From Phycisphaerales bacterium (GTDB lineage Bacteria; Planctomycetota; Phycisphaerae; SM23-33): a DNA stretch of 32,196 nucleotides. A program made the translations under genes and the position numbers. Positions within the stretch are counted from its first letter, which is position 1. Each line of letters starts with the position of its first letter. The notes under the pieces are model-generated. The model was given only the letters and a program-made list of their open reading frames with translations. It searched no databases and was not told where the DNA came from. The DNA is taken from positions 7,880-40,075 of the forward strand of contig PMYM01000203.1 in assembly GCA_003171235.1 (NCBI GenBank), read 5' to 3'. Shown here piece after piece: positions 23,593 through 32,030 of this stretch.

Positions 23593-23631
23593 GGGTGCCA
23601 TGCCCTTACGCGTTTTGTGCGGAAGGGCATG
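23593..23631 (+). repeat. REP-like palindrome upstream of the RAYT gene
   Basis: gggtgccatgcccttacgcgttttgtgcggaagggcatg. CATGCCCTT/AAGGGCATG stem extended by a second helix with one mismatch. Confidence 0.88.
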
Positions 23632-23692
23632 TTCCGTCTTTCCGCCCAGAGGTGGTATTGCACCTATTCAGAACCACAGATAGAATCCCTTC

Positions 23693-24271
23693 ATGTCCGG
23701 GGCCAAACCACTCTATCGCAAGCGATGCAAGCGGTATGACATTCCTTGGCAGGCCCACTACCTGACGTTTTCGTGCTTCCACCGGCAGGCGTTCTTGTCG
23801 CGTCAACGAGCCTGTTAATGGCTGCTGGAATCGGTGGAGAACGCGCGCACCAGGCGCCCATTCGATCTATGGGCTTTCGTGATCATGCCCGAGCACGCGC
23901 ACCTTCTCATCTGGCCGCACGCGGGTGTCCGCGTCAGTGATATCCTGCTAACTATCAAGCAGCCGGTGACGCAGCGGTGCGTGGCGTGGGTCAAGCGCAG
24001 CGCCCCGCATTTTCTGCCGGCCATGCTCGACAGCCAACCCAACGGCAAGCATTTCTTTCGGTTTTGGCAGCGTGGCGGCGGCTACGACCGCAACCTGTGG
24101 TCGACGAGGGAGATTCACGAGAAGATTGCTTACATTCACAACAATCCTGTGCGGCGGGAACTGGTGGCGCGGGCCCAGGATTGGCCCTGGTCCAGCCTTC
24201 ACGCATGGGAGACCGGCCTGGACCAGCCGATTACGATAGATCGTCAGAGCGTGCCGATGTTGGGAGTATGA
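23693..24271 (+). pseudogene. REP-associated tyrosine transposase (RAYT, Y1/HUH) interrupted by one in-frame TAA
   Basis: MSGAKPLYRKRCKRYDIPWQAHYLTFSCFHRQAFLSRQRAC*WLLESVENARTRRPFDLWAFVIMPEHAHLLIWP...IHEKIAYIHNNPVRRELVARAQDWPWSSLHAW. The only stop before the natural end is TAA at 23816-23818, in the same frame. Confidence 0.88.
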
Positions 24272-24282
24272 AAATCGTCCGA

Positions 24283-24321
24283 CATGCCCTTCCGCACAAG
24301 ACGCGTAAGGGCATGGCACCC
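24283..24321 (-). repeat. REP-like palindrome downstream of the RAYT gene, inverted relative to 23593
   Basis: Reverse complement gggtgccatgcccttacgcgtcttgtgcggaagggcatg differs from 23593-23631 at one loop position. Confidence 0.88.
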
Positions 24322-30292: not shown

Positions 30293-30697
30293 TTACCCAC
30301 CCGCAGGGAACAGAATGCCAAGAAGGAAGTACCCCAGGAAGGCGTAGCCCCCGATCACGGAGACAATCTTGGACGCCCACAAGAGCCTCGGAATCAAGTT
30401 GAGCCAGTGGGGTGCTTTCAACTGAGATTCTTCTGAGACTCCAGCCTTTTCCTTGAGCCAGTGGAAGATTCCCCAGATTACGGTCGCTAATGAATAATGG
30501 AGCAGGTCCAAGGCCAGAGTTAGCGCGAACAGGCAAACCGCCCATATCAGCTGGTGTGGGAACCTACTCCCTGATCCTTCCCCAATCCGGAAAATCCAAA
30601 CTACGGCGATACCCGCCAGAGCGAGATTCCGGGCGGCGTCGCTGGCTTTGCCGGAGAACTCGTAGTAGGACTCCCTAAAGTCCGACAGTTTTGCCAT
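30293..30697 (-). CDS. Hypothetical multi-TM membrane protein
   Basis: 134 aa with hydrophobic segments AARNLALAGIAVVWIF, LIWAVCLFALTLALDLLHYSL and IVSVIGGYAFLGYFLLGILF. Confidence 0.65.
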   Translation of the reverse strand: MAKLSDFRESYYEFSGKASDAARNLALAGIAVVWIFRIGEGSGSRFPHQLIWAVCLFALTLALDLLHYSLATVIWGIFHWLKEKAGVSEESQLKAPHWLNLIPRLLWASKIVSVIGGYAFLGYFLLGILFPAGG

Positions 30698-30792: not shown

Positions 30793-30857
30793 TAGTGGTC
30801 CTCTAGACTTCGAGATGACCGACATGATGCCAGAGTATGGCTAACATGTCAAGTCGG

Positions 30858-30955
30858 GTAGGGCGTGCAACTGTTGGGTTGCACGCGCAATTCTGAACGA
30901 ATTTCGATTGAGCGGAATCGGATTGCGCGTGCGGCCCAGCAGCCGCACGCCCTAC
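30858..30955. repeat. BIME-like inverted pair of GTAG-headed REP hairpins
   Basis: 30858-30886 GTAGGGCGTGCAACTGTTGGGTTGCACGC. Reverse complement of 30927-30955 is GTAGGGCGTGCGGCTGCTGGGCCGCACGC. Each folds as a 9-bp stem with a 6-nt loop. Confidence 0.88.
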
Positions 30956-31062
30956 TTCACTTCACTACGCGCATGTCCAAGACGAGCAGCGTGCGGCGTT
31001 GCTAAGGCTGCCGCCGGTGGCGTGAGGGGAGTTTCTGGCCTGTTTGAAGGGAAAGATCGAGC

Positions 31063-31091: not shown

Positions 31092-32030
31092 ATGGAACTA
31101 CCTACCCAGGCTGTCCTGATGATGATTATTGCAGCGGGGAGCCTTTCCGGCTGCCACAAGAAGCATGCTGTCCCGAAAATGCCCCCAGTAAGCACGAACG
31201 AGACGGCTCGCACGAACGAGACGGTTGTAGATCCGAAATCGTTCTTTGATGAAATGCCCCCCAAACGCCCGCCAATGCCTGCTGATGGCACGGGGGTACT
31301 GAAGTTGACAGCTTCTTTGGTGGATATAGATGAAGAGGAGATTCTTGAGTTTGCGGACAGGCAACCTGTTTGGATGCGGTTTTTCTTTATCAACCTCAGC
31401 AACTCTCACCTTACTATGATCCTGCCCGGTCTTATGGGTAAGGGTCTGGGAGTAGAAATAGCTTCGACACCGGGATCTGCTGCAAACGTCAGGCTCTTGC
31501 CAATCGACGATCCCTATCTCGACTTCTCCTACAATATCTTTGGAATTGAACCTGGAAAAGGACTCTGTATCGAAGTGCTCTTGTCGGACTTCCTGGAGAT
31601 CAAGGGCGACGGTAGATGTGATATTGAGGCCAGTTTTCAACCTGTTACGAGACAATACGAAGGCGCGTGCAGATTGTCCGTCCGATTGCCCATGTCACGC
31701 AGTGGTTATGTAGATGAGCGGCGAATCTTAGACATTGTTAAGAAATTGAACGACCTCTATGATTCCGAGAGGATGTACGACCGCACCAAGGCTCTACAGG
31801 CGATTAGGACAGTGAAAGCAGTCGAGACGATGCCCTTGCTCGAACGAGCAATCAACGACTCGGAGCCATGGGTTCGGTCAGAGGGAATGACAAGCCTAAT
31901 CCGCTTGTCTTTTCCTGAGGCGAACGTGTTGCTAGAAAAGGCAAGAACTAGCACGGACGAGTATATTCGGGCGCCGGCAAGAAAAGAGCTTGATCGCCGA
32001 AAGATGACGGAAACTTCTCCTGACGACTGA
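31092..32030 (+). CDS. Hypothetical lipoprotein with C-terminal HEAT-like repeats
   Basis: Lipobox AGSLSGC. C-terminal DRTKALQAIRTVKAVETMPLLERAINDSEPWVRSEGMTSLIRLSFPEANVLLEKA resembles HEAT repeats. Confidence 0.7.
   Translation: MELPTQAVLMMIIAAGSLSGCHKKHAVPKMPPVSTNETARTNETVVDPKSFFDEMPPKRPPMPADGTGVLKLTASLVDIDEEEILEFADRQPVWMRFFFINLSNSHLTMILPGLMGKGLGVEIASTPGSAANVRLLPIDDPYLDFSYNIFGIEPGKGLCIEVLLSDFLEIKGDGRCDIEASFQPVTRQYEGACRLSVRLPMSRSGYVDERRILDIVKKLNDLYDSERMYDRTKALQAIRTVKAVETMPLLERAINDSEPWVRSEGMTSLIRLSFPEANVLLEKARTSTDEYIRAPARKELDRRKMTETSPDD

Follow-up and report, generated by a model that had tools for sequence, protein, structure and literature searches.

A GTAG-type REP doublet in a Phycisphaerae-like genome and its probable copying by a RAYT

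Two inverted hairpins at positions 30858-30955 of a 32,196-nt stretch of DNA (hereafter the window) most probably make up a REPIN (a head-to-head REP doublet) of a GTAG-type family, a non-autonomous miniature element that a RAYT copies; we put the probability of this reading at about 0.88. RAYTs are REP-associated tyrosine transposases of the Y1/HuH type. The class is known, both as REPINs and as GTAG REPs, and the window family is a new member of it. From sequence comparisons in its genome and in relatives, we infer that a RAYT moved the window copy. The window genome (G000) is a Phycisphaerae-like MAG of 3.6 Mb in 282 contigs, 87.6% complete.

Parts, folds and position of the doublet

Each hairpin has a perfect 9-bp stem (9/9 paired) with the head GTAGGGCGTGC, as seen in the sequence and by repeat search, and the original prediction had the coordinates, both stems and the common head right. 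The left hairpin (30863-30886) reads GCGTGCAAC-6 nt-GTTGCACGC and the right one (30927-30950) GCGTGCGGC-6 nt-GCCGCACGC. The GTAGG heads are inverted, starting at 30858 and 30955, and the full order is GTAGG-GCGTGCAAC-TGTTGG-GTTGCACGC-GCAAT, 30 nt, ATTGC-GCGTGCGGC-CCAGCA-GCCGCACGC-CCTAC. The parts are as follows.

30852..30857 (-): outer left flank AGTCGG; AG at -6/-5 is CT on the minus strand, 4 nt beyond CTAC (column counts over 26 subfamily arms; CT cleavage from PMC8266576)
30858..30891 (+): left REP unit, AAC type; GTAGG, stem 30863-30871/30878-30886, loop TGTTGG, tail GCAAT (sequence and repeat search; model R1, E=3e-9)
30892..30921 (no strand): centre, 30 nt, differing in length and sequence between copies (comparison of ten doublets)
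30922..30955 (-): right REP unit, GGC type, inverted; GTAGG, stem 30927-30935/30942-30950, loop TGCTGG on the minus strand, tail GCAAT (sequence and repeat search; model R1, E=2e-9)
30956..30961 (+): outer right flank TTCACT; CT at 30960-30961 mirrors the left flank (sequence and column counts)

The conserved element extends outward at both ends, where an AG at -6/-5 outside each GTAG reads CTAC-N4-CT on the other strand; among 26 arms of subfamily (a), described below, A stands at -6 in 22 and G at -5 in 23. Characterised TnpA_REP enzymes cleave at a CT dinucleotide, a preference attributed to the A and G of GTAG (PMC8266576), and by analogy we infer that the outer CT would be cut in the window family. 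On the model of the same enzymes, a RAYT would bind each GTAG-headed hairpin in the single-stranded state, GTAG would direct the cut to a CT flanking the opposite end, and the unit, as a single strand, would then be joined elsewhere.

Between the hairpins, the original prediction had placed a 40-nt centre with inverted ends. Those ends (GCGCAAT...ATTGCGC) are present, but they belong to the REPs as their conserved tails, which leaves a centre of about 30 nt (30892-30921). A central inverted repeat as a separate part was rejected, as it consists of the tails of the two REP units. The three-part fold proposed for the locus is possible, but a long hairpin is more stable: the minimum-energy DNA fold is one arm-to-arm hairpin with an AA/CC interruption (-39.4 kcal/mol), against -30.5 kcal/mol for the best DNA fold that keeps both hairpins separate.

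The doublet folds far better than its shuffles, both as DNA (z -7.5; reached by 0 of 200 shuffles) and as RNA (z -10.2). A very stable RNA fold would suit a host-functional RNA or DNA element, such as an mRNA stabiliser, an attenuator, or a supercoiling or protein-binding site, with its hairpins kept at each site by selection; roles in mRNA stability and supercoiling have been proposed for other REPs (PMC3733652). We consider such a function improbable here, given that the doublet, with predicted ORFs starting on either side of it and diverging (30293-30697, -, and 31092-32030, +), does not stand 3' of a gene, that the Rfam search gave nothing near any gathering score, just weak miRNA-like chance matches, and that resident copies lose their pairing, as set out below. 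The ORF at 31092-32030 starts about 130 bp past the end of the REPIN; its product is predicted to be lipoprotein-like, with a weak, below-cut-off HEAT-repeat match.

The repeat family and its probable transposase

The proposal of an inverted REP pair of GTAG type was borne out by GTAG on both arms and by a genome-wide family. Exact copies of the 11-mer head GTAGGGCGTGC number 56 in the genome, and those of the reversed control pattern 9. Searching the genome with a covariance model built on one arm gave at least 127 matches at E<=1; the R1 and R2 model searches scored 150 candidates each, so that weak copies are undercounted. Subfamily (a), which includes the window copy, has GTGC...GCAC arms with 6-nt loops that are nearly identical and occur mostly as doublets. 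About 40 GAGC...GCTC arms, also with 6-nt loops, make up subfamily (b); they are mainly singlets and partly decayed. Subfamily (c) has GTGC arms with a short loop, and the arms of subfamily (d) carry an extra, variable inner hairpin.

Pairs of arms within 330 bp were head-to-head in 15 cases and tail-to-tail in none. The arms are mostly extragenic, with 12 of 42 (29%) inside an ORF of at least 200 aa compared with 73.5% of random positions in the same loci, by a crude ORF test. Like GTAG-type REPs, the family combines high copy number and this extragenic location with GTAG directly 5' of the stem-loop, in both window arms and in most family arms, and with a stem of 9 bp, inside the 6-13 bp range. 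Like REPINs, it has inverted head-to-head REPs with a spacer, and the arms of doublets are better conserved than singlets. In the contig collection, a strict 34-nt pattern had no matches; a looser short-loop pattern found 88 stretches there, and all those with a stated affiliation were planctomycete, mostly Phycisphaerae, which makes it very probable that the window genome is itself of Phycisphaerae. The plasmid search gave no matches.

Other repeats adjoin the family in places. At L050, L051, L062 and L063, several GTAGGGCGTGC REPs have a copy of one and the same GGTGCCATGCCCTTACGC palindrome no more than about 100 nt away, as if different REP families insert into or near one another. Short-loop AAC REPs (L041, L057, L058, L044 and L002) often precede a longer shared sequence, ...CACACCATCGGCAG...GGCCGATCACGGCACTGCCTCTG, forming a composite repeat.

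A RAYT flanked by hairpins with the same head, which the original prediction had named as a check, was found intact in relative G021 and as remnants in the window genome. The G021 gene encodes 184 aa, with a REP, GTAGGGCGTGCAACTTGTTGCACGC, about 50 nt upstream of its start and more such REPs downstream. Its product passes the NCBIfam model REP_Tyr_transpos (NF047646; 166.5 bits against a cut-off of 80), carries the HuH motif H59-x-H61, and has TnpA_REP 4er8_A as its nearest solved chain by sequence (E=3e-35). A profile built on two RAYTs matched in 38 of 60 genomes, and most of the RAYTs inspected among these matches were bounded by inverted GTAG hairpins with stems of their own, whose changes were fully paired. 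The REPs of the sister RAYTs of G021 and G031 differ in one T-A/A-T swap, the very one that distinguishes subfamilies (a) and (b) of the window genome.

In the window genome itself, fragments of RAYTs are found between or next to inverted REPs of the window family at C214:4097-4422 and C240:18304-18577; the C214 fragment comprises the C-terminal 48 aa and shares 54% identity with the G021 RAYT. Further pieces lie beside REPs on contigs C74, C29 and C134. These remnants adjoin the GAGC subfamily or hybrid arms, not the exact AAC/GGC heterodimer. In the window genome's assembly, a search with the two-RAYT profile and inspection of flanks found no intact RAYT flanked by a GTAGGGCGTGC-type REP, and an intact gene with the window REP may be absent through the incompleteness of the MAG. 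The sequences compared showed neither an empty site nor an excision. A Pfam Y1_Tnp search misses the RAYTs of this genome, which the two-RAYT profile finds. Some carry palindromes of their own: L369 (C7) and L367 (C24), both intact, have GTAGGGCACGC... and GTAGGGTGGGAG..., and the frameshifted L368 (C162) has GTAGGTCGGGCATGC.... At L124 (G000:C14:7471-7919), inverted GTAGGGTGTGCAGCC...GGCTGCACACC REPs with a different stem enclose what an internal deletion has left of a RAYT, its final part.

That the cognate transposase is absent from the window, and that the doublet has no kinship to the palindrome at 23593, had both been predicted and both held. At 23593-24321, the palindrome of the '23593 family' (GGGTGCCATGCCCTTACGCG...), which is a different family, is inverted around a broken Y1 gene (23693-24271, +) with an in-frame TAA at 23816-23818. 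This unit looks like a RAYT/TIRYT type of a different family. The pseudogene was ruled out as the cognate transposase by its different flanking palindrome and its 27% identity to the G021 RAYT.

The doublet might instead be a MITE that belongs to another transposon family or to another Y1 transposase of the window genome, its link to RAYTs being incidental. The genome does hold ten other Y1_Tnp loci, and the broken one lies within the window, but we judge this origin very improbable: the Y1 loci found by Pfam have no GTAGGGCGTGC hairpin in their flanks (a one-mismatch GCAGGGCGTGC is the sole approach to it, far off in L031), the window Y1 gene is as divergent in palindrome and protein as just described, and the RAYT remnants are directly bounded by REPs of the window family.

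Pairing in source types and in resident copies

To avoid selecting paired copies, arms were gathered with a sequence-only model, which gave at least 86 arms, 76 of them distinct. Among these 76, Watson-Crick pairs filled 618 of 684 cells compared with 545 (sd 6.3) in shuffles, which ignore relatedness, and the covariation signal lay in pairs 4, 7 and 8. Stem changes were counted relative to whichever of six fully paired source ('master') arms was closest, the six having been defined by us from the same data; 65 changes were one-sided (44 broken, 21 G-T) and 2 were two-sided (1 paired, 1 broken). We also compared nine REPs, namely the window GGC arm and eight that neighbour RAYT genes or RAYT remnants in different lineages. 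There, all 81 cells were paired, five of the nine pairs had changed on both sides, and pair 4 showed all four Watson-Crick forms.

Covariation exists between a few source types and is absent from the decay of resident copies. This combination would be expected if pairing were needed at copying and not afterwards, and structure seems to be selected when a RAYT copies the element: stem pairing would be selected at that step, after which the inserted copy would decay by one-sided changes. The same count weighs against host-functional hairpins maintained site by site. The original prediction had invoked selection or a mechanism acting on structure, to be doubted if unpaired substitutions in other copies were as frequent as paired ones. 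A structure-dependent mechanism did shape the family, and covariation is real between the source types and between REPs that flank different RAYT genes; selection on resident copies is contradicted by the excess of unpaired changes. Nor does the arm difference in the window represent local covariation, the point to which we now turn.

A fixed asymmetry and its setting among known REPs

Ten doublets of subfamily (a) are readable: the window copy (C31), two each on C107 and C124, and one each on C39, C44, C134, C138 and C154, those on C44 and at C107:9716 being decayed. All ten combine an AAC arm with a GGC arm, and therefore the difference between the window arms is one fixed asymmetry of the ends, inherited by all copies, and not covariation at the window locus. 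This asymmetry is unusually regular for the known class.

In silico folding as DNA put the long fold ahead of the two-hairpin fold by about 8.9 kcal/mol for AAC/GGC, compared with 22.7 for AAC/AAC and 23.8 for GGC/GGC, and the local hairpins were unchanged across all three. To judge by the smaller gap, the asymmetry makes it harder for the arms to pair with each other but costs neither hairpin its stability. As an addition to the RAYT-copied REPIN reading, not an alternative to it, the difference might itself be selected: by keeping the two REPs from joining into one long palindrome, it would let both hairpins form for the RAYT and spare the element from being removed as a palindrome. The uniformity of the ten doublets and the predicted energy gap point that way, and Di Nocera et al. 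(PMC3733652) noted a predominance of heterodimers without obvious explanation and suggested protection from palindrome removal. We nevertheless regard the idea as doubtful. The ten copies can trace to one founder, the long fold stays more stable even in the heterodimer, and homodimers persist in relatives G021 and G030, where 9 of 12 same-head doublets have AAC stems in both arms.

Among characterised systems, the REPINs of Pseudomonas fluorescens SBW25 (Bertels and Rainey 2011, PMC3116915) share with the window doublet inverted REPs, conserved outer ends, a less conserved spacer, the possibility of one long hairpin and a RAYT link, and compensatory changes have been reported for them. The window family has another REP sequence, belongs to another phylum, has ends fixed as different and is known here from sequence alone. 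The GTAG REP families and REPtrons of Di Nocera et al. (2013, PMC3733652) likewise have a GTAG head, a 6-13 bp stem, head-to-head dimers and a RAYT flanked by REPs; they include heterodimers with different stems (P. aeruginosa GTAG-24) and occur in the PVC group. Our comparison with their 24 families was one of architecture; what differs here is that the heterodimer subfamily, with its RAYT remnants and relatives, is followed in a Phycisphaerae-like lineage. With E. coli BIMEs and TnpA_REP (4er8; PMC8266576), the window family shares dimers of unlike REPs, the GTAG guide, the CT cleavage site and a Y1 transposase that is a close relative of the G021 RAYT. E. coli REP stems need a bulge, whereas the perfect stems of the window family resemble those of group 3 REPs in S. 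maltophilia (PMC8266576).

The family separates two claims that are often merged, namely that REP stems covary between source lineages and that inserted copies decay unpaired; the unpaired decay speaks for selection at the copying step rather than for a function that each copy serves in the host. It also sets all stages side by side, from RAYTs flanked by REPs in relatives through internally deleted RAYT units and REPINs to decayed singlets. The heterodimers of the window family and the homodimers of its relatives make the preference for heterodimers testable, and an adaptive asymmetry, if true, would answer why REP heterodimers are preferred.
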